DNA from: Candidatus Zixiibacteriota bacterium
Lineage (GTDB): Bacteria; Zixibacteria; MSB-5A5; GN15; FEB-12
Direction of reading: 5' to 3'
DNA: 64,000 nt
Assembly: GCA_019038695.1 (NCBI GenBank)
Contig: JAHOYZ010000052.1
Location: 1-64,000, forward strand
Shown piece after piece: positions 25,084-43,148 of this stretch. The notes beneath the pieces were generated by a model, which did not search any database, had not been told where the DNA came from, and worked only from the letters and a program-made list of their open reading frames with translations. A program made the translations under genes and the position numbers. How positions within the stretch are numbered: the first letter of the stretch is position 1; the number at the start of each line of letters is the position of its first letter.

Positions 25084-27834
25084 TTAGGCCGATTCTTCCC
25101 GCATGAGTTCGTCCAATAGGCGAACATCCCTGTCAAGACGCGACTCCCCACCGAATTTCTTCTCTATACTCCTCAAGATCTGTTTTCCCTCTTTGTTACT
25201 GCTAGGCAGCATAGTCTTGATGAGCGCGAGAACGTCTTTGAACTTTTGCTTCGACTGTTTATAGGCATCAACCAGAGACCACGGGCTGCGATCATCTTTG
25301 CTATCAGAACTGTCCATGGTAGATTGCAGTCGTGATATCTGGCGCTTGAGAACCCGTTCGACCACTTCTGGGTCAAGACGCCTACCCAAGGCGATATTGT
25401 AACATCGCCGGGCCTCCGCGGCTGCGTTTTGCCTGGCCACCGGTTCATCAGACAATACTGCCAGCACGTAGTAAGTGAAGGCCTTGTTGTGCATGCAAAT
25501 GGCTGTAAATCTGTCCTCTTTCATAAAACCGGGAACTATCTCTTCATGAATTCTGATAGCATCTAGAACAAGCTGTGTATTCTCTCTCTCCAACGCCTCA
25601 ATCGCTCTATAGTAAGCCAAGCTGGTCCATATGGTTGCCTTGAGGTGAATTAATCCACCGGATCGCCCAGGATCGGTCCAGTCGGCCTCCAGCGGTTCCT
25701 TCTCTACTTCATCCCTCGCCTTCTTGCAGAAGTCAAGAGCCATTTGCCTGAATTTAGAATTTGCCCGAGCCAGCTGTCCGGCCGCGTAAGCCGCCAAGTA
25801 ATGGGCCCTGTAATCCACGGTTTCCTCGCCCGAGTTAAGCTTCTGACAAATCCCAATAATCCGCCCAATCGCTTCTATCTTTTCGGCTGGCGTATCGAAT
25901 TTGGCTTTGTTCTCAGTGTATTCTCTCAATCGGGCTTGGGCCGCCACTATCCTGAATTCTCCTCTAAAATGGTGGACCGAATCCATTTCGGCCAATTGCT
26001 CGGCGCTACGATAGGCTCCTTGAAAACTGCCGAGTGACAACAGCAATACCATCACCGCCAAGTGTCTCTCCAAGGAATCCTTGTCCAGAGACGTCAATTC
26101 CAACTTCTGACCCCAGTAACTCTTGGCTGGGTCGCTGGCGGCCATGCTGCCGGCGGCTATTCTCTCGAGTATCTCATAGAAGTCATTCAACTCCTCATCC
26201 GTTGGTGACTGTTTGGGATAATAGTGAAGGCTTCGTAACTGTTTTACTTCCTCCAGTAATCCCTCGTTTTCAAACCGCACGCGATAAGGAAACATCGTAA
26301 AGTGAACAAAGAGCATCCTGATCTCATCCGAAGTTGGGCCCACCGATTTCAAGCGCGACATAGCTACCCACAGGCGAAATTCAGCTGACATCAGTGTCTT
26401 GAGCTTCAGTACGTGCGCTGTAATATCAGAGTCGTGCGACTCTGATACGTTCTGCAGATCTTGGAGTAGAGCCACAGCTCTATCAAAATCGTCTGATGGG
26501 TGTTGTCCATTTGGGGGTAGCTCTAGATTTCCCCGTTCGAAGTACCTGACAAAGAGGTGACTGGAGTACATTAGGTGTACGTCAAACAGTTTCTTCCGAA
26601 TCGTATTGACATTCTGTACCAGTTGGCAAATTTCGGGCGTTACGTTCAAACTTCCTTCGCAGTACTTGCTGACTTCAAGCGGATTCTTGGCGCACTCTTC
26701 GCGCCTGTCCTTTCGGTCTGAGATAAACTGTTGGATAGCCACCGCATTTTGGGGTTCGACTACCTCCCTTAGTAATTTGCGATCGCTCCTGGCCTGATCG
26801 ATCACTGATTTCGGGTTAACGTTATTCCTCTGCCCCCTGGAGAAGCGGTCATAGAACCTGAAGACGTCGAGGCCACGGAAGAAGGTGGTATGGGGGATCG
26901 GTTTACCATCGGAGTCATGCCACCGCGTCCACTCCGGATTGGCTCGCAGGACGCGATTTACCATGTGGGCTGAGGAGACAAACACAACCCGGTAATCATA
27001 CTTCGCGAGGACCTTGTTCAGGTAGTCGGTCATGGCGACAGCTTCAATATCTCTCTGCCAGGAGATTCTGTAGGTTAGACCCTGGCGTTTGCATTCTTCC
27101 TTAAGCCTCTTAATCCATCGTCCAAGGTCGGCTTCTCCGAGCCCGGTTATCTTCCCGTCCTGGCTTATAGTATCACGGATCGAGTCTGGCAAGCCCCAGT
27201 CCCGGATGTCCAGAGTAACCCTATTGTCCTCGAATAGCCGTTTGGTGAGTTCGATGCCCCGTTCAAAGGAACCGCACAGGATTGAGAACAGTTCGGGGCA
27301 TAGTTCAATTATGAACTCCAAGAGCCTACTATCGGGCGCTCCCTGTTTTAGGTCTCCCAGAAGCTCGGCCAAACTCTTCTTGTACTTCTCCTGAGCTTTG
27401 GACTCTAGGTTACGGAGCTCCCTGCTCAGTCGTTTCTGATCTGAGGCACCAATTTCAGGATGCCATAGGCATTTGTAGAATTCACTTACATACGGAGAGG
27501 GTATCCACAACGGGTAATAGACGCTGTCTTCCGGGAGTCCGAAAAGTAGGCTGACACGACCGGCCAACTCGCGGAGAATCTCATCCTTGATCGGTCCTGT
27601 GACGGTCTCGTAACCATACCTCTTTATGGGATTGGCCTGTGGAAAGGCTACTTCGAATATGTCGAAGAAGTCAACCGTGATGAGCAGTTTATTCTTAGGA
27701 TCGCCGATAAACTCATGATCTGCAATTAGAGCATCAAGATCGGCAATGCGATCCGTCACCCACGCTTGGAACTCGTCGGCTTGGTCGCAAAACTCCTTGC
27801 AGACCGGTTGCGTCTTATCGACAGATTGGCACAT
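25084..27834 (-). CDS. PIN-like N-terminal domain fused to helical (TPR-like) repeats; candidate defence protein
   Basis: The product is a 916-residue soluble protein, last gene of a leftward three-gene operon. Residues 45-300 could form a PIN-like nuclease fold. A hydrophobic strand with an acidic residue (LLITVDFFDIFEVAFP, Asp55) comes first. An acidic helix and strand follow much later (RDIEAVAMTDYLNKVL, then YRVVFVSSAHMV, about residues 259-295), with a helical insertion between. From about residue 500 the sequence is all helix with a repeated A/L/Y pattern (AAYAAGQLARANSKF, ATIWTSLAYYRAIEALE, HNKAFTYYVLAVLSDE) like tetratricopeptide repeats, which bind partners. The PIN assignment is tentative. 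The stop of the 297-aa gene lies 1 base upstream of this start. Confidence 0.85.
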   Translation of the reverse strand: MCQSVDKTQPVCKEFCDQADEFQAWVTDRIADLDALIADHEFIGDPKNKLLITVDFFDIFEVAFPQANPIKRYGYETVTGPIKDEILRELAGRVSLLFGLPEDSVYYPLWIPSPYVSEFYKCLWHPEIGASDQKRLSRELRNLESKAQEKYKKSLAELLGDLKQGAPDSRLLEFIIELCPELFSILCGSFERGIELTKRLFEDNRVTLDIRDWGLPDSIRDTISQDGKITGLGEADLGRWIKRLKEECKRQGLTYRISWQRDIEAVAMTDYLNKVLAKYDYRVVFVSSAHMVNRVLRANPEWTRWHDSDGKPIPHTTFFRGLDVFRFYDRFSRGQRNNVNPKSVIDQARSDRKLLREVVEPQNAVAIQQFISDRKDRREECAKNPLEVSKYCEGSLNVTPEICQLVQNVNTIRKKLFDVHLMYSSHLFVRYFERGNLELPPNGQHPSDDFDRAVALLQDLQNVSESHDSDITAHVLKLKTLMSAEFRLWVAMSRLKSVGPTSDEIRMLFVHFTMFPYRVRFENEGLLEEVKQLRSLHYYPKQSPTDEELNDFYEILERIAAGSMAASDPAKSYWGQKLELTSLDKDSLERHLAVMVLLLSLGSFQGAYRSAEQLAEMDSVHHFRGEFRIVAAQARLREYTENKAKFDTPAEKIEAIGRIIGICQKLNSGEETVDYRAHYLAAYAAGQLARANSKFRQMALDFCKKARDEVEKEPLEADWTDPGRSGGLIHLKATIWTSLAYYRAIEALERENTQLVLDAIRIHEEIVPGFMKEDRFTAICMHNKAFTYYVLAVLSDEPVARQNAAAEARRCYNIALGRRLDPEVVERVLKRQISRLQSTMDSSDSKDDRSPWSLVDAYKQSKQKFKDVLALIKTMLPSSNKEGKQILRSIEKKFGGESRLDRDVRLLDELMREESA

Positions 27835-27835
27835 C

Positions 27836-28729
27836 TTACCGGATGTTCCTCAACAGTTGCCAGTCATCAAAACTGCTAATGACAGATTCCTTGGTCGCCC
27901 CCACTTCAATCGGTATGCCCCATGGTTCCCGAAGTAGTTTCTCGGAGACCTTTCTGGAAGTGTACCAGCATGCGTTAAGCAGCACTTGATTGGCAGAAGG
28001 TAAGGAGAACTGAAAACTGGACCATATCGTATTGAAAAACGTTCGTTCATATCCGCCATGTTCAAGAAACTCGCCCAGAACAACACTCAACTCAGGATCT
28101 TCCGGATTTATTGCAGCCAGGCGCACTCCTGCCGCCTTGAACGCATGAACCACAATCATGGCCTTTTCTTCGACGTCCAATCCAGGGAAAGAATCTAGAA
28201 AATCGTTGACCAGAAATTCCGGACGCCGATGTCTTGCCACATTGCGACGCATAGCCTTAGCGCGATCAGGTTCCTTCGTTTCTGCAATACAGGCATCGAG
28301 AACCTTGCCCGACCACTCGCGATTAATGAGGCGGTGTGCGGTGACCCGGGCAGGAAAACCTTCAGGGTCGAGATGAAACAGACTGATATCCGATGTTCTT
28401 TCTCGAAAGCCCTTGCTAACTATATAGTCGATATCGGATCGGTACGAGTCGACGGCGCTTCCCAGAGGATTGCCAACTTGACTCAGCGCCCGAATCATCA
28501 CCTGGTAGGTCAGAATCAGGTCCTGTACTGCGGTCAACTTCTCGGAAACCGGCTTTGATCGATCCGCGATTATTTCCAGCAGACAGAGTAATTCGGCATA
28601 GAACGTATCCTCTCGGATAAGCTCATCCGATAAGAGGGTATCGGAATTATCCGGGGCGAGGCTTGGTGCGTATGCCCACTGCCCTTGGCTGAGCGGCTTG
28701 GTGTTAGTGTCGGGGCCGAATATGGTCAT
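27836..28729 (-). CDS. Protein of unknown function in the candidate defence operon (297 aa)
   Basis: This soluble, mostly helical protein has no recognised motif. The first 30 residues are polar and probably disordered; the rest alternates amphipathic helices (YAELLCLLEIIADRSK, VSEKLTAVQDLILTYQ, EKAMIVVHAFKAAGV) and a DSYRSDIDYIVSKG segment. The start overlaps the stop of the upstream hydrolase gene by four bases (ATGA), and it ends 1 base before the 916-aa gene, so all three proteins are made together and likely form one system. It could be a linker or a regulator between the hydrolase and the PIN-like protein (inference). Confidence 0.83.
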   Translation of the reverse strand: MTIFGPDTNTKPLSQGQWAYAPSLAPDNSDTLLSDELIREDTFYAELLCLLEIIADRSKPVSEKLTAVQDLILTYQVMIRALSQVGNPLGSAVDSYRSDIDYIVSKGFRERTSDISLFHLDPEGFPARVTAHRLINREWSGKVLDACIAETKEPDRAKAMRRNVARHRRPEFLVNDFLDSFPGLDVEEKAMIVVHAFKAAGVRLAAINPEDPELSVVLGEFLEHGGYERTFFNTIWSSFQFSLPSANQVLLNACWYTSRKVSEKLLREPWGIPIEVGATKESVISSFDDWQLLRNIR

Positions 28730-30390
28730 TGACCTAGGTGCTCCTTCCAGAAGCCGGGAATGTCTTTATGTTTCTTATACGGTAACTTCGTGATCGCAGT
28801 GGCAAAGTTTTTGGGCAAGTCGTCAGGGTTTGGCGGACCCAAACTGTCTTTGACGGCACGACATGTCTGTTGTACTACTATGTCGGCCAGATTATTCAAT
28901 TCCTTGCTGATGTCAAAGTCTGAAAATGCCATCTGTATAGCGAGCAAGAGGTTCCCATACGTTGTTTTTGTCACTAACTCGTGGCCCTTTTCCTGCCAGC
29001 TTGTGTCCGTCTGATCCAGTTCTCTTAAGAGGTTGTGAAGCTCGTACAAGTGGCGCCTCAGACCGAATAACTGCCTTGCCCGCTCCTTTGCGAATGCACC
29101 CCTCAGGAGCCTTCTTGAGGCGAAACGACTCAATCTGCGGGTTGGCTTGTCCTTCCAGTCGTCATCGTAGCCATGCCTCTTTAGGTCACGCACATAAGTA
29201 GTAAGATTGTCTAGTGTCCTCTTTAGCTGTACCATAGCTAAACCAATGGCAGCCTCGTCGTTGGGTTTTTCCCTATTGATCTCCAGAAATATGTCCACTT
29301 GACGAGATACGGTGAGGCAGTGTCTTGCGAAGTCTCGTATTTCAGCCGTAGATTCAATTGTTCGGGTCAGCTCGGCGATAAGGCAGATCGACTGAGATCC
29401 CATTTTGCATGGGTGATCTCCTTGATTCTGGCAGGCGCCAATTTGGGTGGCATCGACATCACAGCCGCAGATAGACTCCAGAACTTGCGATTCGTCCTGT
29501 TCGCTGTCATATGGACTTGGGCTACCTCCCCCCTTCTCTATCATATATTCCGAAGGCTCGATACCGACTTTTCTGAAGCTTTCTTTCAGAAAGTAGATAG
29601 TATCACTTACCACTTTGTCCTCGCGAGTCTGTGGCTTGCAGACGGCAATATGGTCGCCAGGCCTTTCCCAACAGAAATATTCACCCAATTCTGCATTCGC
29701 GCTGACATGGTCGACTATCTTAAAAGGGAACTCGAAAGAAAACCATTTATTCCATTCCAGCTTATCTCGTTCAGAGATGCTCTGGATGAATAGCCTGTCA
29801 CCACCGCGTTTTTTAAAGAAGGCGCGAAATCCCTCATGTAAGTCTTCGAGCCCAGAGGAGTCCCACTTCAGTTCCTTGACCAATTCGTTTTCTTTCAGCC
29901 ACTCTGTGAAGAATGAGACCCATTTGGCGGATTTGGCTCCGCGATGCGGGACGGCAATAAACTCAATGCCCACCGTATTCTCTGCCAATCCGACAAACTG
30001 CCCATTTGGGAATTCCATCGCCTTCGTTAGGGACTTCTTGGTTACGATTCCACCAAGGCTGTGGGTGACAAATGCCAGCGGGAGCTTCCCTACGTCACCT
30101 TTGGCCAAATCAAGAAGGAAGGACCTTGCCAGCCCAACCGTATCGGACTCTTTACCAGACCAGTCCAGCACGCTGGACCTGAAATCGTAGGTCCACACCC
30201 CCAGTTTGGGACATTGCTCGGCAATCCAGGTCGGCCAGAATGTCTCGGCGTCGTCTTCATCGGCCATCCAAGTAGTGAAGCATCCTCCCCGAAATCCATG
30301 GATGAATACTACGTCTGCTATTCGATCGGTTGGCAGGTTACCAACTGAATGAAGGCCTTCGGCATCCACTAACGTAGGCTTATCGGCCAT
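28726..30390 (-). CDS. SesB-like alpha/beta hydrolase (DUF676/PGAP1 type) with helical C-terminus
   Basis: With ATG at 30390 (GTG 30396 is the alternative) the protein has 554 residues. The N-terminal 255 form an alpha/beta hydrolase: the oxyanion strand VVFIHGFRGG, a WPTWIAEQ..GVWTYDFRSS stretch, the nucleophile Ser111 in THSLGGIV, the invariant VPHRGAKSA region and the catalytic His247 in GDHIAV. This pattern is that of SesB-like lipases/esterases. In fungal NLR proteins and bacterial nSTAND defence proteins these act as membrane-damaging effectors fused to an NTPase. Here no NTPase is fused; the remaining 300 residues are helical (DLKRHGYDDDWKDK, RHLYELHNLLRELDQ). It is the first long gene of the three-gene leftward operon. 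Confidence 0.88.
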   Translation of the reverse strand: MADKPTLVDAEGLHSVGNLPTDRIADVVFIHGFRGGCFTTWMADEDDAETFWPTWIAEQCPKLGVWTYDFRSSVLDWSGKESDTVGLARSFLLDLAKGDVGKLPLAFVTHSLGGIVTKKSLTKAMEFPNGQFVGLAENTVGIEFIAVPHRGAKSAKWVSFFTEWLKENELVKELKWDSSGLEDLHEGFRAFFKKRGGDRLFIQSISERDKLEWNKWFSFEFPFKIVDHVSANAELGEYFCWERPGDHIAVCKPQTREDKVVSDTIYFLKESFRKVGIEPSEYMIEKGGGSPSPYDSEQDESQVLESICGCDVDATQIGACQNQGDHPCKMGSQSICLIAELTRTIESTAEIRDFARHCLTVSRQVDIFLEINREKPNDEAAIGLAMVQLKRTLDNLTTYVRDLKRHGYDDDWKDKPTRRLSRFASRRLLRGAFAKERARQLFGLRRHLYELHNLLRELDQTDTSWQEKGHELVTKTTYGNLLLAIQMAFSDFDISKELNNLADIVVQQTCRAVKDSLGPPNPDDLPKNFATAITKLPYKKHKDIPGFWKEHLGQ

Positions 30391-30652
30391 GAGCACTCAC
30401 TTGCTCTTGACCAACGGGCGAGTTCGCCACCACATCAAATCGCTGTCGTCTCGGAGCACTCTCACAAAGATATATCGGTACGGTTTCCCGATTTGCTGCT
30501 GCATTACACCCATCGAATCTGCTATCAAGCGTCTCACCTTTGATCTCGGGTGTTGGCTCTTGAGACAGCCCCCCCTTTGCATCACTCCCATGATACAAAT
30601 CACTTGTCACATTGGGTAACGGGTTAACACCCCTCTCGCTGTTTGAAAGCAT
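30380..30652 (-). CDS. Possible 90-aa first ORF of the hydrolase operon
   Basis: The ATG at 30652 is only 5 bases downstream of a good -10 element, so transcript and ORF would start almost together (leaderless). The frame overlaps the hydrolase start by 11 bases. The product is polar with no recognised domain, so it may simply be the transcribed leader that couples translation to the hydrolase. Included because promoter, frame and overlap agree. Confidence 0.35.
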   Translation of the reverse strand: MLSNSERGVNPLPNVTSDLYHGSDAKGGLSQEPTPEIKGETLDSRFDGCNAAANRETVPIYLCESAPRRQRFDVVANSPVGQEQVSAHGR

Positions 30653-31148: not shown

Positions 31149-31672
31149 CTAAAATCGACTCATTTGAAAGGGACAATTCCTGTGGGATTATGATGGGGTC
31201 TGGCGCCCCATCGCGATGGATCAGAGTCTCCCGAAGGTCCACATCCGCATTCGGGCAATAGATGGCGAAATAACAAGCGCCCTCCAATGATTCCACGCAA
31301 CTGAACTAAAGGTAGGCACACGTCACTATCTCGTCACAAGTCGATCGATCTCGTGTTGTAAGTGGTTGATTGGAGAACGCTTTCTTGTTAGGGGACTTGA
31401 ATACCTTGATCTGCCGCCGAGTGTGATTGCATCGTGATCTTCCACATTCAGCAGAGGGCTGCAATCTATAGAAATCGGTGATCAGAGATAGTTACTCGTT
31501 TAGATCAGGCTATAGTTTCACGTATAACACCAGCTGGTCCAACAACGGAGGGATTGCCAACAAGTCTGCCCCATTGTCAACGGCTACAGTTGCTTCATCT
31601 TGACAACGGATGAGAATACTGATATGTTCGTCAGTAGCAGTGCATCTTGACGTTACGGAGCCATAGCAAATC
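31149..31672. other. Gene-free stretch between the two candidate cassettes
   Basis: This 520-bp stretch contains a 7-bp-stem hairpin (31192-31212) and the att-like block D (31321-31404). No convincing gene was found. A 72-codon minus-strand frame at 31510-31728 runs into the next gene on the other strand and is not accepted. Confidence 0.6.
31321..31404 (-). repeat. att-like block D: second copy of the internal bipartite repeat and T-loop-like motif
   Basis: On the minus strand the order is TATTCAAGTCCCC (31403-31391), then CAACCACTTACAAC (around 31368-31355), then CTTGTGACG and ATAGTGACG (31340-31321, period 11 bp). The attL/integrase leader has the same three elements in the same order (TTCAAGTCCC, CAACTACTTACAAC, ATTGTGACG twice), with both gaps exactly 10 bp longer. 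Block C shares the outer two elements at identical spacing. Confidence 0.7.
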
Positions 31673-32758
31673 TTGGGACAGACAATAACGAAGCCAAACG
31701 GCAACATTGTTAGAGATTTTCTCATCAAGCCTCTTGATAGAAGGTGCTTCGACGATTTCTATCGTATGTGCTTTGTCCACACTGTGGGATTCCTCCGGTA
31801 TCTCAAGATCAAGGGTTTTCAGATGCCTACAGAGCGGCAATCTGATAGCCATGCTCTTGCCGATCTGGCTATGGACATGCTGGGGACATTTCTTCAGAGT
31901 TCCAATGAACAGCCCTATTGGGTCGTGTTTGACTACTTCAATAGGATCGAAATAGACGACATTGTCAACACTGACGATGACGAGTTGTACCACCAATTCA
32001 GAATCCTGCTACAAGGCTATGTGCGCAAAGAACTCAGTCGCCTTCGAGGGGGAACCGATCCACAGATTCATAATCTTAAGCGACGTTTCAAAGATGTGTT
32101 GAAGGAGCCTGAGTATATAGTCAGTCGCATTGACGGTAACTGTATTGACCTTGTATATCTACGAAAACACCAGCACAATCTCCGTGATACTCTGCCGCCG
32201 TTATCATACGAGAGCCTGACTACCATTGTGGAGAAAGCATATCTGAATAGCACCAACCGTAAGCAGTGGTGTCAGGGCGTATTTGAGCTTGTCGATAGCC
32301 ACGAGGTTTGCCAGAATCTTGTTAAGAAACACGAACTTCTCAGCGCCGCAGTTGCCGTTAACCTGAGATACTGCGATCTTGATGGTATCCGGCCTACAAA
32401 ATTGACCTCACCAGATCACGGTTTGATTGTAAGGGCTATTAACGAAGCCCGTAGCGAAACACTTGACTGGATGCGGGAGTCTGTACTCAATAAGTATGTT
32501 AGGAAAAGCCAGATCACGCAAGACGAGGCTAATCGTTTCAGGGTAGCGTTTGAGCAGTTTTCAACAGACCTGGCTCATGTTGGCGAGGTTGATCTGCTGC
32601 CGGTCTATTTCCGGGAGGTTATGCCTGATGACAAGCATGACCAGTATCTTGAGGATTACAAATATGTGTTCGAAACAGCTATGGACAGCGCTAAAGAAGA
32701 TTTCTTGTCCCGGCTAAAGAAAAAATCGACATTGCAAAAGTATCGGGACTATTTGTAG
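31673..32758 (+). CDS. Sigma-factor-like or regulatory helical protein, first gene of the Lon-like protease cassette
   Basis: The 361-residue frame starts at TTG 31673, the first start codon after an in-frame stop; GGAG lies about 12 bases upstream. The protein is helical and charged. The arrangement DDFYRMCFVHTVGFLRYL..HALADLAMDMLGTFLQ and LLQGYVRKELSRLRGG only loosely recalls sigma-70 region 2, and the C-terminus has YVRKSQITQDEANRFRVAFE. I could not confirm a helix-turn-helix. Next comes a protein with an anti-sigma-type zinc finger, so a sigma/anti-sigma pair is a reasonable but unproven reading. It opens a rightward three-gene unit (gap 26 bases to the next gene). Confidence 0.75.
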   Translation: MGQTITKPNGNIVRDFLIKPLDRRCFDDFYRMCFVHTVGFLRYLKIKGFQMPTERQSDSHALADLAMDMLGTFLQSSNEQPYWVVFDYFNRIEIDDIVNTDDDELYHQFRILLQGYVRKELSRLRGGTDPQIHNLKRRFKDVLKEPEYIVSRIDGNCIDLVYLRKHQHNLRDTLPPLSYESLTTIVEKAYLNSTNRKQWCQGVFELVDSHEVCQNLVKKHELLSAAVAVNLRYCDLDGIRPTKLTSPDHGLIVRAINEARSETLDWMRESVLNKYVRKSQITQDEANRFRVAFEQFSTDLAHVGEVDLLPVYFREVMPDDKHDQYLEDYKYVFETAMDSAKEDFLSRLKKKSTLQKYRDYL

Positions 32759-32784
32759 AGTGAAGAATAAAAGGATGGAGAGAT

Positions 32785-33660
32785 ATGCATCCATCGCGTA
32801 AAGAGTTGGCTCAGTTTGTTGACAAAAAGCTGAATCCGCAAAGTATTTCCAGCATTGAGAAACATCTGGAAATCTGCGAGTTCTGTCGTGACTTCGCAAA
32901 CGACTACCGACTCCAAAACAAATTGCTAACCGAGGCTGCAGCAGAGACATTGCCCCCTGGAGCCATGACTCTTGCGGACAGTCTGTACAATCAGGCTATA
33001 GCTGGAAGAACGATTCACATATCTACGCTGCTTGAGCGTGGATCGCAGGCTTCTATGGCATTAGCCGCCGATGGCGACAAGCAATTTGTGCCGTCTGTTC
33101 AGAACCTCGTTACTCTGTGTTCTGAATCTCCTGAAATCATCCTACGCGTGATGCGCGACCAACGCAAGCATCAGGATTATTTACAATTGATAAGCGATGA
33201 TCCGTTGATGACGGCAAACGTTCTCGTGCAAATTCCAGAGTTGAACCTCCAGTATGTCACTGATTCGAATGGTAAAGCCGAGTTGGATAAGGCTCTTGAT
33301 GATTCTATTGAAAAACTCAAGTGGCAGATCAAGCTACCGGATGTTGTTTATGACCTCGAGCCACTCGTTTATGATCCTGACAAAACGGAATATACTGAGG
33401 ATGTCGAACTCAAGACCGATAGAGATGATCGGATCAGAGTCACATTCGAGGGCAAAACTGAGGGCAAGCAGATTGGCATTGAAATCCTTGCCATAGACGG
33501 CAGGGAAGATTTCGGCGAAGTGTTAGTATCGGTGACCCAAAGAAGTAAACCTCAGTCTATAGAGACGCAATCCAAAAAAACGATAACGTTCGATCTGACC
33601 GATGATGATTCTACTATCAACATCCGTCTCTTTCAAGCACGGGATGAACAGACCGAATGA
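32785..33660 (+). CDS. Zinc-finger (anti-sigma-like) protein with beta-rich C-terminus
   Basis: The 291-residue protein opens with a zf-HC2/anti-sigma-type finger: HPSRKELAQFVDKKL, then SSIEKHLEICEFCRDFA, i.e. His, then His-x3-Cys-x2-Cys. In ECF systems this finger grips the sigma factor. No membrane segment follows, unlike many anti-sigma factors. The middle is helical with repeat-like 'ESPEIILRVMRD' and 'DDPLMTANVLVQ' segments, and the C-terminal third is beta-rich (RIRVTFEGKTEGKQIGIEIL). GGAG precedes the ATG. Its stop overlaps the protease start by four bases, so the two are coupled. A role as the substrate or adaptor of the Lon-like protease is an inference. Confidence 0.85.
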   Translation: MHPSRKELAQFVDKKLNPQSISSIEKHLEICEFCRDFANDYRLQNKLLTEAAAETLPPGAMTLADSLYNQAIAGRTIHISTLLERGSQASMALAADGDKQFVPSVQNLVTLCSESPEIILRVMRDQRKHQDYLQLISDDPLMTANVLVQIPELNLQYVTDSNGKAELDKALDDSIEKLKWQIKLPDVVYDLEPLVYDPDKTEYTEDVELKTDRDDRIRVTFEGKTEGKQIGIEILAIDGREDFGEVLVSVTQRSKPQSIETQSKKTITFDLTDDDSTINIRLFQARDEQTE

Positions 33661-35927
33661 CCACCTCCCCTATACAATTCGCTAAGCAGTTTGCTCGACT
33701 GCGGGAAATTATCCAGGCTTCGGCAGCGTCTGATTTGAAGTTACTCCAAATGTTTGATTTCTGGCCCGAGCTAAAAGACCATCGCGACGAACCAGCCTAC
33801 GCATCGTACTATGATGAGTTCACTCCCCTTGTTGAGAACTTCCTCACTGACACCAACCTGCACGACCTGTCGCTTGATGAACTGACAGGCTTGCGTGAGA
33901 TGGCTTCCGACCTATCCCTGAAAAAACCAGCTTCGCTGGTAGTGCGCAGGATGGCGAAGGTCTATTGCTATGTTGGAGAAGTTGACAAGGCACTACAATT
34001 GTTCGCTGAGATTGCTGGTGAACAGTGCAACATACCGGACTCAGAAATCTACCTGGAAACACTCTCTGAGTTCGAGCGCCTGCAAGCTATCTGCTCAAAG
34101 ATTCCTGAGACTTACTCGATGACAAAAGAGATGCTATGCACCATTGCTGATGAATGGGAGTCCGAGCGTGGACATCTTTGGTTTGATCGGGCGCGATGTC
34201 TGTTTGTTGAGAAAAACACCAATGGTAAAGCTTCGCGCGGTCGGATGCGAACCTTGATAGGCTCTGCAAAGATGGCCGAGAAGAATAAAAACGGTGATGC
34301 CGTCGGAGCTGCTACTATCGAAGTTACGTTTGAGAACCAGATCACGACCCCGGATGATCCCTTTATCGGCGTAGTCTATGACGGTCTTACAGCAGTGCGG
34401 GCGATGGTAACTCAGCCACATAGTGGCATTTTGCGTGGATCGGACAAGAGCCGTATTCAGGCACGGTTTCAAATTGAAGATGCCGACCATGCCTTCACCG
34501 GCGATTCCATTGGACTGGCCGCGGCGTTGGTCGCGTATGCGCAACTTCTGAAACCGGACATTGCTCGCTATGAACGGTTCATCTCGTCGGAAGTCGCTTT
34601 CACTGGTGGCATAGACCGGCAAGGTCGGCTTCTCCCGGTGAACAAAGACACACTTAGTGTGAAGGTAGAGCGGGCATTTTTCTCGTCAGTGAAATACTTG
34701 GTTTTACCAGAGAGCAACATTGTTGTCGCCAGGGAATGTGTGACGATATTGCAAGAAAAGTATCCTCATCGCGATTTACAGCTCATACCCTCTACGCACA
34801 TAGGAAAAGTCGCTTGCGACCATAATATTGTGCGCGCCGAGCGGGTTTGTATGGGACAGTTTGTGGCCCAAAAAGCAGGCCAATACGGCCGCATGGTCAA
34901 AATCCAGGTGCCCTTGTTGCTGGCGTTGTTGTGGGTCCTGCTAGCCTTCTTTTATCCCAGGTTCTTCAATCCGTGGTTTGACCGTAACCCGAAGTATGTG
35001 AAGGTGACCACCCGCGGCTTTGAAGCCCTGAACAAGGACTCGATCTTCCTGTGGGATGTGGAGTATGAGTGTGAGGGAATTGAAGCCATTCCTAAATGGC
35101 AGACAGGCGACCTGGATGGGGATGGGATGAATGAGATTGCGCTTGCTCCCAAGTCACTTGGACCGTGCGATAGGAACGCTGTTCTGCATGTGTATGATTC
35201 TGAGGGTGAGCTTCTCTTCGAGCGAACAATGGTACAACGTATGCCGAATGACGACGTGGGAGATCAATTCGTGCCTTCAGTTATTTCGTTCCAGCCATTG
35301 AATGACAGGCATGTTATTATCACTGTAGCCTGCCGTTCAGGTCCAGCTCGCGGACATGTGAGAATATGGAGTCGAACGGGCGATTCCCTGGTTACCTATA
35401 TAAATAAGGGCTTCCCGGGACCGAGTCTATTGGTTGATGTCGATTCGAATGGTGAGAACGAGATACTCTTTTGCGGCATCAACAATCCTATGGCGAGTGT
35501 ATGCCTCTTTACACTCGGCGATGGTCCGTGCAATGGGGAGTCGCCACCACGTGCGCCAGGTCCGGGACCCGAGGAGGTCTATTTGATCGTGCCACCAACT
35601 GGGGTTTCACAGCAACTCGTGGAGCAGTACAACTGTGTTTTGGGAGTAAGTGAGGAAGCTCCGGGCCGTGTGAGACTCATTGTTTGCGAAAACATCTCGC
35701 GGATACCTCGGTGCGACCTCTATTACTATTTCGATGAAAGAATGCGAGTAACCAGTGTTCTGGCGAGTGATAGCTACATCGCACAATGGGAAGCGTTTGT
35801 AGAGCAGGGCCTTCTTCCCGATGAAAGCCTCGTTTCCGTTCAAGCGCGAGCGCGGGACAACGTCACCTACTGGACAGACAGCGGCTGGGTTACAGAGGGA
35901 GAACTCCGTGCTCTCGAAGAACGGTAG
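33657..35927 (+). CDS. Membrane-anchored Lon-like (S16) serine protease with extracytoplasmic FG-GAP-like region
   Basis: The 756-residue protein has a helical N-terminus (1-180) followed by a Lon-type peptidase domain (about 210-390). The Ser-Lys dyad is visible: Ser284 in FTGDSIGLAAAL, and Lys336 in NKDTLSVKVERAFF followed by VKYLVLPESN, matching the GLKEK..A....VLIPEEN pattern of Lon. There is no AAA+ module. One transmembrane helix follows (QVPLLLALLWVLLAFFYP, about 420-440). After it comes a C-terminal part with two calcium-loop-like FG-GAP/VCBS motifs (GDLDGDGMNEIAL near 485, DVDSNGENEILF near 594). The protease side would face the cytoplasm with the zinc-finger protein. A sensor that degrades a regulator on an outside signal fits this layout (inference). 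Confidence 0.88.
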   Translation: MTTSPIQFAKQFARLREIIQASAASDLKLLQMFDFWPELKDHRDEPAYASYYDEFTPLVENFLTDTNLHDLSLDELTGLREMASDLSLKKPASLVVRRMAKVYCYVGEVDKALQLFAEIAGEQCNIPDSEIYLETLSEFERLQAICSKIPETYSMTKEMLCTIADEWESERGHLWFDRARCLFVEKNTNGKASRGRMRTLIGSAKMAEKNKNGDAVGAATIEVTFENQITTPDDPFIGVVYDGLTAVRAMVTQPHSGILRGSDKSRIQARFQIEDADHAFTGDSIGLAAALVAYAQLLKPDIARYERFISSEVAFTGGIDRQGRLLPVNKDTLSVKVERAFFSSVKYLVLPESNIVVARECVTILQEKYPHRDLQLIPSTHIGKVACDHNIVRAERVCMGQFVAQKAGQYGRMVKIQVPLLLALLWVLLAFFYPRFFNPWFDRNPKYVKVTTRGFEALNKDSIFLWDVEYECEGIEAIPKWQTGDLDGDGMNEIALAPKSLGPCDRNAVLHVYDSEGELLFERTMVQRMPNDDVGDQFVPSVISFQPLNDRHVIITVACRSGPARGHVRIWSRTGDSLVTYINKGFPGPSLLVDVDSNGENEILFCGINNPMASVCLFTLGDGPCNGESPPRAPGPGPEEVYLIVPPTGVSQQLVEQYNCVLGVSEEAPGRVRLIVCENISRIPRCDLYYYFDERMRVTSVLASDSYIAQWEAFVEQGLLPDESLVSVQARARDNVTYWTDSGWVTEGELRALEER

Positions 35928-35966: not shown

Positions 35967-36090
35967 TCCCACCTCAGAGTTAATTCAATTCCTTTTCTAC
36001 AAACTGAGTTTTCGGTGCCTATTCTATAGTTGAAGATAATGATGAGCGAAACAAGCAATCATTGTAACCATTTAACTTGAGGTTGGTACT

Positions 36091-37905
36091 ATGAAGCAAT
36101 TTTCATCAATCTGTCTCGTGGCGGTAGTTATCGTGCTACTGCTAACAGGCTCGAGCAGGGCTGACAATGTGATACTCAATGGAGGGTTCGAGGATGATCT
36201 CACCTATTGGGATGCATATCAATACCCTAGCGGTTGGACTACTTCGACAACAAACCCCCACAGTGGACAAAAGTGCGCGGTCTTCACTTTTCCAGGAGGG
36301 GCGGGGTATTATGACGCCGCAATGCGCACATCAAGCTTTGAAATGTATGTCGTACCGGACGTGCTATATCGGTTCACCTTGTGGACGCGTGAGATAGACA
36401 CTCATGATACATGGACTGACACTGAGAGTATTCTTGATGCCACAGTCTCATTGAATGGATCGTATGCTTTCCATCCCTTACATCCTTCACCTTCTGAATC
36501 TTGGCAACAATGGGAATTGATCGGTCAATTCGAGGATAGCGGTTATGTAACTGTATACTTAGAGCTTCACGGATATGCCACGTCGGGGGCAGCAGAATTT
36601 GCCGTTGATGACGTTATATTGGAACGCATTCCTGCCGTCCTCAGCTTCCCTTCAATCGCCGTCTCACCCTGTGATGATGCACAGCCTGTGATGCTTGACC
36701 TCTCGCAGCCGATCAATGGAGCTATTATCCCGATTCGTATTCCAGATGGGGCTGAGTTCTGCGGCCTCACTACCGATGGCCTGTTCACCGAGGATTGGGA
36801 GATGGCTGTGTACTACAATGGGGATAGCACCGAAATCTCGGTTGGGCTCTGGAATCTGGTTGGAGACCGTATCCCAAGTGATACCACTACGGTGGTTAAT
36901 GTGTTGTTCCATGCCACCCCAGAATGTGAAACGAGCTATTATCTACACTGGGATACGGCCTTCATGGGTGATCCCCAGCATGAATTGCTTTTCTCCGATA
37001 CCAATGATTTCGATCTGGCCGGATATTTCGATCCTGACGTAGATTCGACCGAGATAGAAGGCTACATCCCTGGAGATGTTAACGGTGATGGGGAAGTTAA
37101 TATCGCTGATCTCACTTACCTGGTTGCTTACCTATTCACTGGCGGACCGCCGCCATGCGTGATGAATGCAGGTGATGTTAACGGTTCCTGCACAGGACCG
37201 AATATCGCCGACTTGACCTACCTTGTGTCATATCTATTTACTGGTGGTCCCGCTCCGGTGTGTGGCTGCCTCGGCGAAGGTGCTGCTATGAAAGTGAGCA
37301 GCGATATCTCGTTGATCACCGAGTATCACGACGGCACTACCACTATTACCCTTAACTCCAACCGGGACCTTCGCGGATTACAGTTGACTTTCGCCGGTGA
37401 TGGCGTCCCGCAACCGTTGAGTCTGCTTGATAGCCGTATCGAATTGATGTCAGGCACCAACATTATTGGTCTGGCAGATCTCGAAGGCGAGGCAGTCATT
37501 CAGTCTGGAACACAGAGTGTCATCCGATTGGAAGGAGAGTACGAAATCGTCGAGGCGATAGCATCCGACATGAACCACAACGAGGTTGTGCTTGCAATTG
37601 GCGCTCCAAAGGAAGAAAGCCTGCCATGTAGGTTCGTCCTTGATCAGAACTACCCCAATCCATTCAACCCGACGACGGCGATTAGTTTCAGCCTGCCCAA
37701 CGCCGGGGAAGTTCGTCTGGAAGTGTTTAATGTCATGGGGCAGCAAGTTGCTACTCTGGTCAATCATCACATGGAAGCGGGGAGTCATACCGTGACCTGG
37801 GACAGCAGAGATAACAGCGGACACAATGTGGCGAGCGGTGTCTATTTCTATCGTCTTGAGGCAGGAAGCATCAATAAGACGAAGAAGATGGTGTTACTCA
37901 AGTAG
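36091..37905 (+). CDS. Secreted dockerin-repeat protein with C-terminal sorting domain
   Basis: The product has 604 residues, with a Sec signal peptide ending LLLTGSSRA. The N-terminal part looks like a carbohydrate-binding/beta-sandwich module (VILNGGFEDDLTYWDAYQYP). Residues about 329-385 hold two dockerin-type calcium repeats (GDVNGDGEVNIADLTYLVAY and GDVNG...NIADLTYLVSY). The end is the FlgD-like / type A sorting domain (NYPNPFNPTTAISF, VASGVYFYRLEAG, KKMVLLK) that marks cargo for export across the outer membrane in FCB-group bacteria. It is followed by a strong terminator. It lies inside the island, and its paired dockerin repeats are typical of Zixibacteria-like genomes. Confidence 0.88.
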   Translation: MKQFSSICLVAVVIVLLLTGSSRADNVILNGGFEDDLTYWDAYQYPSGWTTSTTNPHSGQKCAVFTFPGGAGYYDAAMRTSSFEMYVVPDVLYRFTLWTREIDTHDTWTDTESILDATVSLNGSYAFHPLHPSPSESWQQWELIGQFEDSGYVTVYLELHGYATSGAAEFAVDDVILERIPAVLSFPSIAVSPCDDAQPVMLDLSQPINGAIIPIRIPDGAEFCGLTTDGLFTEDWEMAVYYNGDSTEISVGLWNLVGDRIPSDTTTVVNVLFHATPECETSYYLHWDTAFMGDPQHELLFSDTNDFDLAGYFDPDVDSTEIEGYIPGDVNGDGEVNIADLTYLVAYLFTGGPPPCVMNAGDVNGSCTGPNIADLTYLVSYLFTGGPAPVCGCLGEGAAMKVSSDISLITEYHDGTTTITLNSNRDLRGLQLTFAGDGVPQPLSLLDSRIELMSGTNIIGLADLEGEAVIQSGTQSVIRLEGEYEIVEAIASDMNHNEVVLAIGAPKEESLPCRFVLDQNYPNPFNPTTAISFSLPNAGEVRLEVFNVMGQQVATLVNHHMEAGSHTVTWDSRDNSGHNVASGVYFYRLEAGSINKTKKMVLLK

Positions 37906-38247: not shown

Positions 38248-38355
38248 ATGAAACGGATCGCTGCTGCATTCGTTGCGCTCGGCGTCAGCTGTATTGATCA
38301 AGGCTACAGATTAAACCAAGATAATGACAAAATTGTATTAAGGGGAGTAAGATGA
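38248..38355 (+). CDS. 35-codon signal-peptide-like ORF coupled to the large secreted protein
   Basis: ATG at 38248 with GGGGGTGA upstream opens MKRIAAAFVALGVSC..., a short lipoprotein-like signal (GVSC) followed by about 20 polar residues. It ends with TGA overlapping the ATG of the 1598-aa gene (ATGA at 38352-38355). It could be a coupled leader peptide or the remains of a truncated secreted-protein gene. Confidence 0.4.
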   Translation: MKRIAAAFVALGVSCIDQGYRLNQDNDKIVLRGVR

Positions 38356-41300
38356 AAAAGTCTCTTGTGCTTCTAATGGTGTGTGCGTCGGTTGCTATTC
38401 TATGGTCACCAGCCCAAGCCGATTCGACTACAGTAACATTCGGGGAACCTTCGCCCGCTGCGTTCATTTTCGATGAGGAGATGTCTGGATTGTCCAGTGA
38501 ATCCGACGGTATAATGGCGCAATCCGAGGGAACGGCGGACTTCTATTATGACCTCCAGGCGAGAACCGCCAGTGGGATGGTCATAATCGGGGATGATACT
38601 TGGGACGGTTTCGGACAAAGCTTAGCCACCGGAGACTTGAATGGCGATGGCTATGATGACTTGATTGTGAGTGCAGATTATGCCGATGGTATTTCCAATG
38701 GATCGCCAAGATCGGGTGAGGTCTATGTATTCTATGGGAACGGGAGTTATGCTGGTGACACGTTGTTGGCATCAGAAGCGGACGCAATTATCTACGGAGT
38801 GGATGCAAACGATGTCTTCGGAACAGCTCTTGCCTGTGGTGATGTTAACAATGATGGATTAGCCGATATTGTCATTGGCGCATGTTGGGGCGATGGGCTC
38901 AATAACAGTACTTCAGGCACTGGAGAAGCATATATTGTCTTTGGTAAAACTACTCTACTGACTACTATGAGTGCCTCAACGGCCGACGTCATCATATATG
39001 GTTCAACATCCAGTTACGGAGTTTCAAGTAACCAACTAGGGAACGCTGTCAGTATTGGCGATATAAATGGTGATAATATTGGTGACGTCATCATGAATGC
39101 TCCGGGGGAAGATAACCTCGCTTTGGGCATCATTGATTGCGGGGCATACTACGTAATCTACGGCTCATCGACCTGGCCGGACGCCATAAATCTGTCTTCA
39201 CATTATGATGTGAGGGCTTTGGGTGAAGCTACCGACGATTGTTTTGGCTGGTTATCTGGAACCAAATATCGCTACTTGAATTGCCTGAGTTCGGGAGACA
39301 TAAACTGCGATGGATCTGATGATCTATTGCTTGGATTTTCAGGTGGAGACGGACCGCTTGACAATATTGCAGAAGCTGGAGAAATAAGAATTGTATATGG
39401 TTCTCCATCGCTTCCCTCGGATATAGATTTATCAACCAGCACTGATGTTATAATCTATGGTGATGACGCTGAAGACAAACTATGTGTTTCCAGGGCCGTC
39501 GACGTAAACAACAATGGGTGCAGCGATATTTTAGTGGGCGTTCCATATGCTGATGGCAGGTACGATGATTCATTTAACGCGGGTGAATTCTGGGTAATTC
39601 ACAACTCAGGGAGCCTGCCCGACACGATTTTGGAATCGCTGGTGGATATGGCTATCTATGGGCGGGACACCCGGGATCACTTGGGGTGGTCGTTCTTTGC
39701 CGGTGACCATGAAAACAACGGAACGAACTCGTTGATGATCGGAGTGCCGGGGGGTGATGGACCAGCCAACTCAAGAGATCGTTGCGGCGAGATTGCTCTT
39801 TTCAAGCGCTCCGACATGTTACCGGCCATCGTTGATCTTGCCACCGAAAAGAGTGATGCCATAATCTTTGGATCAGTGATTCAGGATTTTTTGGGGGTGC
39901 ATGAGATTGTTCTCTCGAATTTTGACGGTGACGGTCTTCCTGAAATAATCGGAGCAGCCACTTGGGCTAACTTCGACGGTAAGGAGGAGGTTGGAAAGGT
40001 CTTTGTCATGCAGGGCAGTTCTTTCTTCCTTAACCCACCTACTGTTGAATTCACCGAACCTGGATCTGACGACCTTTGGTCGATTGGTGATTCAAGACCA
40101 ATCAGTTGGGAATTGTCAGGTGGTCTTCCTGATAAGATCGAGATCTTTGTATCAAGAGATGGAGGGTCCAGTTGGCCATCAGAACCAATCGCTAGCTTCA
40201 GCCATGTTTTCCCTCTCTCCTGGAATTGGACAGTCACCGGACCTGAGACAGACAATTGCCAATTCAAAGTGGTTGCATCAAATTCGTCGGGATCAGGAAC
40301 AGCGTGGTCAGAATGGGTCCGAATAAAACCAGTGATTAGTTACGGTACAACAGTTATAACTCATGGATACATACTTGATTTCATAAACAGTAATGACTTG
40401 GATGAAGGTGCTGGTTGGACAATATCTATGGCCAATGCGATCATAGAAAGGCTCGGCCATGGAATAATCTATAGAGTGGTAGACGGCAGAATCATGCCGG
40501 TCGAGTTAGGTGAGAACCGATTGGATGCTGAGGGGAATGGGGAGAAAGTTATCGTCTTTGACTGGATGGAGGAGTCCGATCGTCCTTTTTTTGGTCTAGC
40601 GGAGGCAGCGGCCGATGTTTTGTTTGCCTGTTTGATAGATGGAGTCGATAATTTCTTAACTGAGCCTTATTGGTCTTTAGAGCAACTCCATTTTATCGGG
40701 CATAGCCGTGGGGCAGTTATTAATAGTGAAGTAATTCAAAGGCTAGGTTACTATCAAAATAAAGGTGAATTGCCTGTATTTGTAGATGAAGATATTCATA
40801 TGACAACATTAGACCCACACCCTGCTGATGATGATGATTTTGATTGTATCGGAGACCCGATAAATCCACAAGACAATGATGTGAATTTAGGTATTGATGA
40901 GTTAACTCCTGAAACTGTTGTTGGTAGGGGAGTTGTCGCATGGAAGAATGTTATATATGCTGATAATTACAGACAAGGAATGTGTCCAGATATTGATATC
41001 TATTTAAATGGGCTGTCAGAGTATCCTGGTATAGGTTATAAGGCAGATTTAACAGGGGGATTAACATTAAATTATCCAGCTACTTATAGTGGAGCTGGCA
41101 TAGTAGGTCATCATTCAGCGGTACATGCTTGGTATCATGGAACAATAGATACTCATACTGACATCGAAATAGATGGTGCTATTACAATTCTTGAACCTAA
41201 TATTTGGTATCCTGGTGATTTGCGGTCATCTATTGGCTTTAATATAAATCAATCTTATCCTGGAAGTAATTTGGACTGGTATAAAGTCACAAATGGAATT

Positions 41301-43148
41301 GAGATTGCAGAAGACAACAATCTAAGAGTAGATAAAATATTCAATGGTGATTTCTCAATGACGGAAGGTAGCGATTCAAAATTACCAGGATGGAGTTTTC
41401 AAGGTGGTGGTGGAGATGGAAACATTCATGAAGAAGATAAGAAGTATTACTTAGAATTAGAGCGTGGCGATACTTATAAGAGACATAATACTTTATATAT
41501 ACCTAATAATGCAATTTCAATTGAATTTTGGGCTAGAGTACAAAATAGTGGTGGTGGTGACCTACTAGAAGTTACTTTGACCGGGGATCTGAGTAACCAT
41601 GTCTATATCTTTTCCTTAGAAGACAAAACCTCTTGCGCTGGGGAATATTGGCGAGTAGACATCCCAGTTCTATTAAGAGGAACTTCACAAACAATTGAAT
41701 TTAAAGTAGATGATCCAGACTGGGGATGGGTTGACTCAAGAATCTGGATTGATAATATTGAATTCGACTTTGATAATGAAAGTTCGTTAATATTTACTAA
41801 GTGTTCTCCAGTCGATTTAATAATTACAGATCCTAATGGTAATATTCTAAGTAACTCAATTATCGAAATTGAAAATTCAATTTATGAATCTTATGAGATT
41901 TCACCTGGGGATTCAATCGCAGTGCTTAAAATAAAAAATCCGATTGATCAAGGATTGTATAAAATAGAAGTGGTACCATGGGCAAATGCAAACCCAGACG
42001 ACCATTATTCTATAACTGCCTACTTTGGAGAAGATACAATAGTATATGCTGATAATGAACCAATCTCAAGTATCCCACCTAATGGTTATTTATATTCAAC
42101 ACTTGATACTGGTTCGGTAAATGGAACTATCGGAGCAGGCGGTACCGGATTATTGGGTGTAACAGTTGGACTGTATGATTCAACTGGTGAGTTTGTGTCA
42201 TCAATGACATCAAATGATTCAGGTTATTATCAATTTGCTGGGTTAAATAATGGAATTTATACGGTTTCAATTGTTACTCCATTGGGTTATCAAGCTGTAT
42301 CTGAATCGCAGGAAATTAAAGTTCGAGGATTACCTCATGAAGTTAATTTTGAGCTAACTCAACTTGAAATCCCTCTTGCTCAGCGTGGCCGAGGATATTG
42401 GATGCACCAGGTGAATGCATTGCTTTCTGGGAAGGGGAATCCACAAGAAGCAATGGGTGATATGTGTGATTACATGGAACTGATCCGCACACATTTCAAC
42501 GAACATGGGCTTAACCAAATCAATGTCTTCCAAGTGGTTTTCACTGATGAATGCGATCAGCGTTTGGAAGCTCTTAGAACGACTATTTCACCAAAAGCGA
42601 AAGCAACCATGAACGAGAAGGCAAGAGCTCACCTGACAGCTCTTTTGCTTAATATGGTCTCGGGCAAAATAGCTCAGTGGCATCCTGTTAGTGAGGATTC
42701 CCTCACACTCTCCCAGGCGATCACATATTGCAACAGCTTAATCACAGACAGCTATCCGGAAAATGATGAGATGGCCAAGGATATCGCTGAAATGATCAAT
42801 GAGGGGCAAACAATACCTGCAAGTTGGATTGATCCACTTACTCCCGACATTACCTATAAGCAGGGATTAGAATCAAGCCTACCGACAGTCTATACACTTT
42901 CTCAGAACTACCCCAACCCGTTCAACCCTGTAACTGAGATTACATTTACTCTTCCTCAGGCGTCGAGGGTTAGACTCGAAGTTTTCAATATGCTCGGGCA
43001 GGAGGTATCTACTATCTATGACGGTGGCCTTAAGGCGGGAGTCCATTCATTTACATGGGACGGCTCATCGGTGGCGAGCGGTGTCTACTTCTATAGGCTT
43101 ACCGCGGGCAACTTTGTCGAGACGAAGAAGATGGTGCTGATCAAATAA
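38352..43148 (+). CDS. Very large secreted FG-GAP protein with lipase-like motif and sorting domain
   Basis: The 1598-residue protein has a signal peptide ending SPAQA. Residues about 70-560 are integrin-like FG-GAP repeats (GDLNGDGYDDLIVSADYADG, GDVNNDGLADIVIGACWGDG and more). An Ig-like piece follows (PTVEFTEPGSDD). A stretch around residues 660-880 contains a lipase-type nucleophile elbow GHSRGA with Ser785. A CnaB/SdrD-like fold comes near 1250-1340 (GVTVGLYDSTGEFVSSM), and the end is the YPNPFNP...GVYFYRL sorting domain. Bases 40340-42360 are visibly more A/T-rich than both ends and use TTA, ATA and AAT codons freely, so the middle was probably acquired by recombination. AGGGGAG precedes the ATG. 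The substrate and role are unknown. Confidence 0.88.
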   Translation: MKKSLVLLMVCASVAILWSPAQADSTTVTFGEPSPAAFIFDEEMSGLSSESDGIMAQSEGTADFYYDLQARTASGMVIIGDDTWDGFGQSLATGDLNGDGYDDLIVSADYADGISNGSPRSGEVYVFYGNGSYAGDTLLASEADAIIYGVDANDVFGTALACGDVNNDGLADIVIGACWGDGLNNSTSGTGEAYIVFGKTTLLTTMSASTADVIIYGSTSSYGVSSNQLGNAVSIGDINGDNIGDVIMNAPGEDNLALGIIDCGAYYVIYGSSTWPDAINLSSHYDVRALGEATDDCFGWLSGTKYRYLNCLSSGDINCDGSDDLLLGFSGGDGPLDNIAEAGEIRIVYGSPSLPSDIDLSTSTDVIIYGDDAEDKLCVSRAVDVNNNGCSDILVGVPYADGRYDDSFNAGEFWVIHNSGSLPDTILESLVDMAIYGRDTRDHLGWSFFAGDHENNGTNSLMIGVPGGDGPANSRDRCGEIALFKRSDMLPAIVDLATEKSDAIIFGSVIQDFLGVHEIVLSNFDGDGLPEIIGAATWANFDGKEEVGKVFVMQGSSFFLNPPTVEFTEPGSDDLWSIGDSRPISWELSGGLPDKIEIFVSRDGGSSWPSEPIASFSHVFPLSWNWTVTGPETDNCQFKVVASNSSGSGTAWSEWVRIKPVISYGTTVITHGYILDFINSNDLDEGAGWTISMANAIIERLGHGIIYRVVDGRIMPVELGENRLDAEGNGEKVIVFDWMEESDRPFFGLAEAAADVLFACLIDGVDNFLTEPYWSLEQLHFIGHSRGAVINSEVIQRLGYYQNKGELPVFVDEDIHMTTLDPHPADDDDFDCIGDPINPQDNDVNLGIDELTPETVVGRGVVAWKNVIYADNYRQGMCPDIDIYLNGLSEYPGIGYKADLTGGLTLNYPATYSGAGIVGHHSAVHAWYHGTIDTHTDIEIDGAITILEPNIWYPGDLRSSIGFNINQSYPGSNLDWYKVTNGIEIAEDNNLRVDKIFNGDFSMTEGSDSKLPGWSFQGGGGDGNIHEEDKKYYLELERGDTYKRHNTLYIPNNAISIEFWARVQNSGGGDLLEVTLTGDLSNHVYIFSLEDKTSCAGEYWRVDIPVLLRGTSQTIEFKVDDPDWGWVDSRIWIDNIEFDFDNESSLIFTKCSPVDLIITDPNGNILSNSIIEIENSIYESYEISPGDSIAVLKIKNPIDQGLYKIEVVPWANANPDDHYSITAYFGEDTIVYADNEPISSIPPNGYLYSTLDTGSVNGTIGAGGTGLLGVTVGLYDSTGEFVSSMTSNDSGYYQFAGLNNGIYTVSIVTPLGYQAVSESQEIKVRGLPHEVNFELTQLEIPLAQRGRGYWMHQVNALLSGKGNPQEAMGDMCDYMELIRTHFNEHGLNQINVFQVVFTDECDQRLEALRTTISPKAKATMNEKARAHLTALLLNMVSGKIAQWHPVSEDSLTLSQAITYCNSLITDSYPENDEMAKDIAEMINEGQTIPASWIDPLTPDITYKQGLESSLPTVYTLSQNYPNPFNPVTEITFTLPQASRVRLEVFNMLGQEVSTIYDGGLKAGVHSFTWDGSSVASGVYFYRLTAGNFVETKKMVLIK

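Follow-up and report, generated by a model that had tools for sequence, protein, structure and literature searches.

The nearest known relay is that of CalpL, CalpT and CalpS from type III CRISPR, in which cA4 activates a Lon protease that cleaves an anti-sigma factor in complex with an ECF sigma factor (PMC11417357). The sensor of CalpL is an intracellular cA4-binding SAVED domain. LonA and LonB carry an AAA+ module, and ZAS anti-sigma factors of the RsiW/ChrR/RsrA type, which have an N-terminal HxxxCxxC helical zinc-finger domain, are inactivated by site-1/site-2 proteases or through redox. The usual partner of a ZAS-type inhibitor is a sigma factor.

Here we analysed a window of 64,000 nucleotides, the whole stretch of Candidatus Zixiibacteriota DNA under study, in which four genes (g1-g2-g3-g4) appear to form a self-contained, cis-acting surface-signalling cassette. 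The literature searched contained no description of a cassette of this kind. By analogy, it may work like CalpL/CalpT/CalpS with another sensor and another output: both have an AAA+-free Lon-type protease, an anti-sigma protein as its presumed substrate and a regulator gene, and in both, proteolysis would proceed without ATP-driven unfolding. However, the putative sensor of the cassette is an outside beta-domain acting across the membrane and, unlike CalpL, g3 gave no SAVED match and has an outside FG-GAP-like domain instead. Unlike CalpS, g1 has no detectable ECF sigma similarity, and unlike the Calp system as a whole, the cassette includes a gene for a secreted protein, its proposed output, that is preceded by a promoter-like element of its own. 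The three ORFs given in the preliminary description of this DNA, as well as the coupling of g2 and g3 through a four-base overlap (ATGA, 33657-33660), were verified at the positions listed here.

31600-31628, forward strand: predicted sigma-70-like promoter driving the g1-g2-g3 operon, TTGACA-N17-TATGTT, its -10 box preceded by TG (10/12 match).
31673-32758, forward strand: g1, candidate for a DNA-binding regulator or a sigma factor; a mostly helical protein of 361 aa whose exact start (TTG) is uncertain.
32785-33660, forward strand: g2, predicted soluble anti-sigma-type protein with an N-terminal zinc finger (H27-C31-C34).
33064-33069, forward strand: Ala94-Ala95 of g2, proposed cleavage site.
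33657-35927, forward strand: g3, with a helical N-terminus, a Lon-type protease domain, a transmembrane helix and an outside beta/FG-GAP-like domain (predicted).
34506-34508, forward strand: Ser284, predicted Lon catalytic serine of g3.
34662-34664, forward strand: Lys336, predicted Lon catalytic lysine of g3.
34905-34967, forward strand: predicted single transmembrane helix of g3, N-in/C-out.
35868-35909, forward strand: YWTDSGWVTEGELR motif (YWTDSGWVTEGxLR) in the outside C-terminus of g3.
35992-36027, forward strand: promoter-like element CTTTTCTACAAA-N15-CTATTCTAT between g3 and g4 (containing TTTCTACAAA-N15-CTATT, 35994-36023).
36091-37905, forward strand: g4, proposed output gene, encoding a secreted protein that has dockerin-like repeats and a T9SS-type/FlgD C-terminal tail (Pfam).

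Other genes of the window were also noted. Three adjacent genes of 916, 297 and 556 aa lie on the minus strand (25084-30396); the 556-aa product is alpha/beta-hydrolase-like and matches the PADLOC entry DUF626_VIII (E=9e-14), which may mark a defence-related set. The second gene downstream of the cassette (38352-43148) encodes a 1598-aa secreted FG-GAP protein with an SdrD_B-like domain and a T9SS tail, and GC content is low at 40-42 kb.

Conservation of the trio, which the preliminary description had named as a check, was evident across Zixibacteria. The order g1-g2-g3 was retained, with short gaps or overlaps, wherever the contig extended far enough. The trio is not a product of chance, as dozens of loci conserve it, with identities of 14-48%. 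The genomes compared were mostly MAGs, with the genes in related loci taken as mechanical ORFs, and the named relatives were mostly Candidatus Zixiibacteriota MAGs. A contig search with a single window protein as the query returned nothing, whilst the alignment as the query returned 21 loci. The distribution of the cassette was patchy. This included g1 in 38/132 searched Zixibacteria genomes, g3-like sequences in 69/132 (around half being only weak matches to ordinary Lon) and one genome with four full copies (G130). Some copies were decaying, with g3 missing after g2 (L152:4199-6228), a g1 remnant beside a T9SS-tail remnant (L155:5823-6738) or an interrupted g1 (L168:2650-3706). In a further broken cassette, two overlapping ORFs made up g3 (L030:7250-9654). 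Upstream of g1, sites scoring at least 10/12 against the sigma-70-like pattern occurred in 11/25 homologous loci, compared to 2.6% of shuffles; for the g1-upstream region of the window taken alone, matches of this type were not above chance.

The g3 product carries a true Lon (S16) proteolytic domain with a Ser-Lys dyad. Its Lon-type domain spans about residues 178-396, followed by the transmembrane helix (about 417-437) and the outside beta/FG-GAP-like domain (440-756). A single-sequence PDB search gave weak LonB matches only, and the family profile matched archaeal LonB at E=3e-6. The AlphaFold2 model (pLDDT 84), built like that of g1 from a shallow alignment (15-18 sequences), returned 148 matches at E<=0.001 in a Foldseek search against the PDB, and among the 50 listed, 50/50 were Lon. 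The best E was 2.5e-8 with probability 1.00, and target TM-scores reached 0.77 where the matched structure was an isolated proteolytic domain. The Ser284/Lys336 dyad of the preliminary description was upheld, as both residues were invariant in 32/32 homologues, Lys336 aligned to the LonB lysine and the predicted fold was that of Lon; G282, G323 and R339 were likewise invariant. The same account of g3 as a membrane protein without an AAA+ domain also held. Pfam and NCBIfam scans gave no AAA match, and the N-terminal ~172-175 residues were helical in the model instead. A conserved hydrophobic stretch, with K/R on its N-terminal side, marks one transmembrane helix ahead of the outside beta domain. 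Because the stretch before the helix is conserved and K/R-rich, the positive-inside rule predicts a cytoplasmic Lon half and an outside beta half. In comparison to archaeal LonB and bacterial Lon (S16), g3 has a similar predicted proteolytic fold and dyad but, unlike LonA/LonB, it has no AAA+ module and carries an outside sensor domain, an architecture that is not that of a general protease.

FG-GAP matches were obtained for 7/15 g3 homologues, none being reported for the window protein. The YWTDSGWVTEGxLR motif was nearly invariant in most homologues and was replaced in a few variants. Two g3 copies (L025:8955-11606 and L027:2-1705) had in-frame insertions of repeated sequence (e.g. GRVPSIDHSGEKPD...) after the helical N-terminal part and ahead of the Lon domain, which look like translated mobile repeats. 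Phage sensing had been raised as one possible role of the cassette, and nothing was found to point to it: the sole PADLOC match was to CRISPR-Lon, and it was weak (E=0.057). A defence role, for which that weak score was the sole indication, was rejected. As to the type III CRISPR association of CalpL, no CRISPR neighbours were noticed in the flanks compared, the flanking genes being annotated in part. A viral scan returned a single g3 relative (L203, 30% identity) on one IMG/VR contig of 83 kb, which could be a misassigned host contig.

The two halves of g3 differed in their histories of divergence. Pairwise identities of the cytoplasmic and outside halves were uncorrelated (r=0.09); the g3 proteins of L026 and L169 shared 54% identity inside and 22% outside, whereas those of L038 and L163 shared 21% inside and 41% outside. 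Judged from these comparisons, the outside domain is swapped independently of the Lon half. A transmembrane helix and outside beta-domain of the g3 type were also fused to histidine kinases in three loci (L147:3727-5805, L148:1616-3667 and L149:214-2292). Genes for secreted proteins of the T9SS/dockerin type adjoin the histidine kinases of L147 and L149 and lie near that of L148, an NtrC-type regulator is also present in L147 and L149, and in L147 a sigma-54-like site lies ahead of the secreted-protein gene. The output of the kinase version would be phosphorylation and a sigma-54 activator, compared to Lon, anti-sigma protein and g1 in the cassette. The occurrence of this outside domain on both Lon proteases and histidine kinases suggests that one sensor type serves two different relays.

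The anti-sigma-type zinc-finger identity of g2 was borne out by its profile match to RsiW (E=5e-4) and by H27, C31 and C34, which were invariant in the alignment; zf-HC2 was matched in 9/19 members. As in the RsiW/ChrR/RsrA-type ZAS anti-sigma factors, g2 carries an N-terminal, helical HxxxCxxC zinc-binding domain. Unlike them, it has about 220 further residues of unassigned sequence and no transmembrane helix, and the inactivation proposed for it is through a Lon-type protease, not through redox or site-1/site-2 proteases. Ala94-Ala95 form invariant columns inside the variable stretch that follows the zinc finger, and we infer that g2 might be cut there.

The identity of g1 as a sigma factor, as proposed previously, was without support in sequence, profile or fold. 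No family match was found in Pfam and NCBIfam scans of 18 g1 members, nor any match in a PDB profile search. Profile-profile comparison (hhalign) with the ECF and group-3 sigma factors of related genomes gave a probability <1%, whereas the ECF and group-3 sets, used as a control, matched each other at 99.9%. Membership of either group was rejected on this result and on hmmsearch scores that were no better than those of decoy genes. A hand alignment of the g1 stretch 'DLAxDxLGxLF' to sigma region 2.2 was also discarded, since it fails in g1 clade B. The AlphaFold2 model of g1 (pLDDT 82, pTM 0.39) was confident locally and poor for domain packing, with a predicted beta-hairpin at residues 148-163. 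Sigma-2/sigma-4 folds had been expected, and Foldseek gave no match at E<=0.001 against the PDB and BFVD; an RpoD model ranked first (E=0.35), and sigma-S entries came 8th, 10th and 14th, interspersed with unrelated helical proteins.

What the cassette controls is suggested by g4 and its promoter-like element, both absent from the preliminary description. In 31/34 loci the gene after g3 shared its strand (exceptions L167, L169 and L171). The domain content of g4 was highly variable between loci. Dockerin-like repeats or a T9SS-type tail were encoded by 24/34 genes in this position, compared to 16/178 other genes of the same loci (Fisher, p about 1e-13, for loci that are related to each other and not fully independent, phylogeny being ignored).

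The g3-g4 gaps of related loci shared TTTTCTACAAA-N15-CTATT, and the core C[TCG][AG]CA-N17-CTA was present in 27/34 gaps at one exact spacing. The same core averaged 0.59 occurrences (maximum 4) in dinucleotide shuffles and occurred 0-4 times at other spacings, with the shuffles testing a fitted pattern, since the core was derived from the same sequences. A few loci were without the element. Its median distance to the predicted g4 start codon was 69 nt, and it was found upstream of g1 in 0/25 loci. In the host genome, the full element had one match, at the cassette, where the PWM score was 23.1; none of 14 further near-matches scored above 7.3. A wider regulon in the host genome was rejected, because these near-matches score far below the cassette site and resemble chance. 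Seven further genomes with a cassette likewise had their best or sole match there, and off-cassette matches in the other genomes scanned occurred at about the rate of a reversed-pattern control. The third base of CTACA followed the g1 clade, being G in clade B and, with one exception, A in clade A (p=3e-6, ignoring phylogeny), a pairing that is no more than suggestive, as it is nested in phylogeny. A bipartite element of fixed spacing before g4, covarying with g1 clade, provides indirect support for a sigma function of g1.

Taken with the cassette layout, these data lead us to favour a relay in which an outside signal would make the Lon domain cleave g2, after which g1 would be released and g4 transcribed from the element, a reading to which we assign a probability of about 0.62. 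The g1, g2 and g3 proteins would be produced constitutively from an ordinary sigma-70-type promoter, with g2 keeping g1 inactive in the cytoplasm. Perception of a signal by the outside beta-domain of g3 would activate the cytoplasmic Lon-type domain, which would cut g2 without ATP-driven unfolding. The freed g1, as a very divergent sigma factor or sigma-like promoter-recognition protein, would then drive the adjacent g4 from the TTTCTACAAA-N15-CTATT promoter. The first part of this relay, from outside signal to inside proteolysis of g2, had been read from the gene layout in the preliminary description and is well supported, by conservation of the trio, by the exchangeable outside domain and by the presence of that domain on histidine kinases; the sigma identity of g1 is the part that did not stand. 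The beta-hairpin in the g1 model also speaks against the relay, as ECF sigma factors lack this feature, and so do the few loci without a same-strand g4 or without the element. A broader possibility, which we raise tentatively, is that g1 founds a promoter-recognition family without detectable sigma-70 kinship, in which each member serves one private promoter and is released through a transmembrane Lon protease, the sensor on the outside being exchanged between proteolytic and phosphorelay signalling.

The lack of sigma homology in g1 would also suit a relay with the same proteolysis in which g1 is a novel DNA-binding activator (or repressor), g2 is its inhibitor and recognition of the g4 promoter falls to an ECF or housekeeping sigma factor. 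The predicted helix and beta-hairpin of g1 could be winged-helix-like, and TCTACA and TATTCT partly resemble -35 and -10 boxes. We consider this less likely, however. The element has an invariant spacing and invariant bases that are atypical of sigma-70 (a C ahead of TATT and AAA behind ACA), as if a single factor contacted both boxes directly. A sigma-70-like site of at least 10/12 was found in 0/34 g3-g4 gaps, and inhibitors of the ZAS type normally bind sigma factors. Given its Lon-type domain and the constant neighbouring gene for a secreted protein, g3 might instead be primarily a quality-control or processing protease, acting for the membrane or on the secreted product of g4, with g2 as an adaptor and no transcriptional relay. 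This is quite improbable: the Lon half is predicted to be cytoplasmic whilst the g4 product is exported, g2 is anti-sigma-like, and both the promoter-like element and the histidine-kinase versions of the sensor indicate gene control. That the g3-g4 element is not a promoter but serves as an RNA element or lets g4 genes be exchanged by recombination, as the variable domain content of g4 might imply, is the least credible reading, given its single fixed spacing and the one full match in the host genome, which leaves no second flanking copy for cassette exchange.

If true, the favoured relay would carry the principle of CalpL/CalpT/CalpS, in which an anti-sigma protein is cut by a Lon-type protease, over to the ordinary sensing of outside signals across a membrane. 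This would suggest that relays built from Lon and an anti-sigma protein are a general design in signalling. Control by the cassette seems to be confined to one adjacent gene, and it would thus represent a compact natural sense-and-express module. The tight pairing of element and regulator in many genomes makes the unassigned g1 family directly testable as a new promoter-recognition factor.
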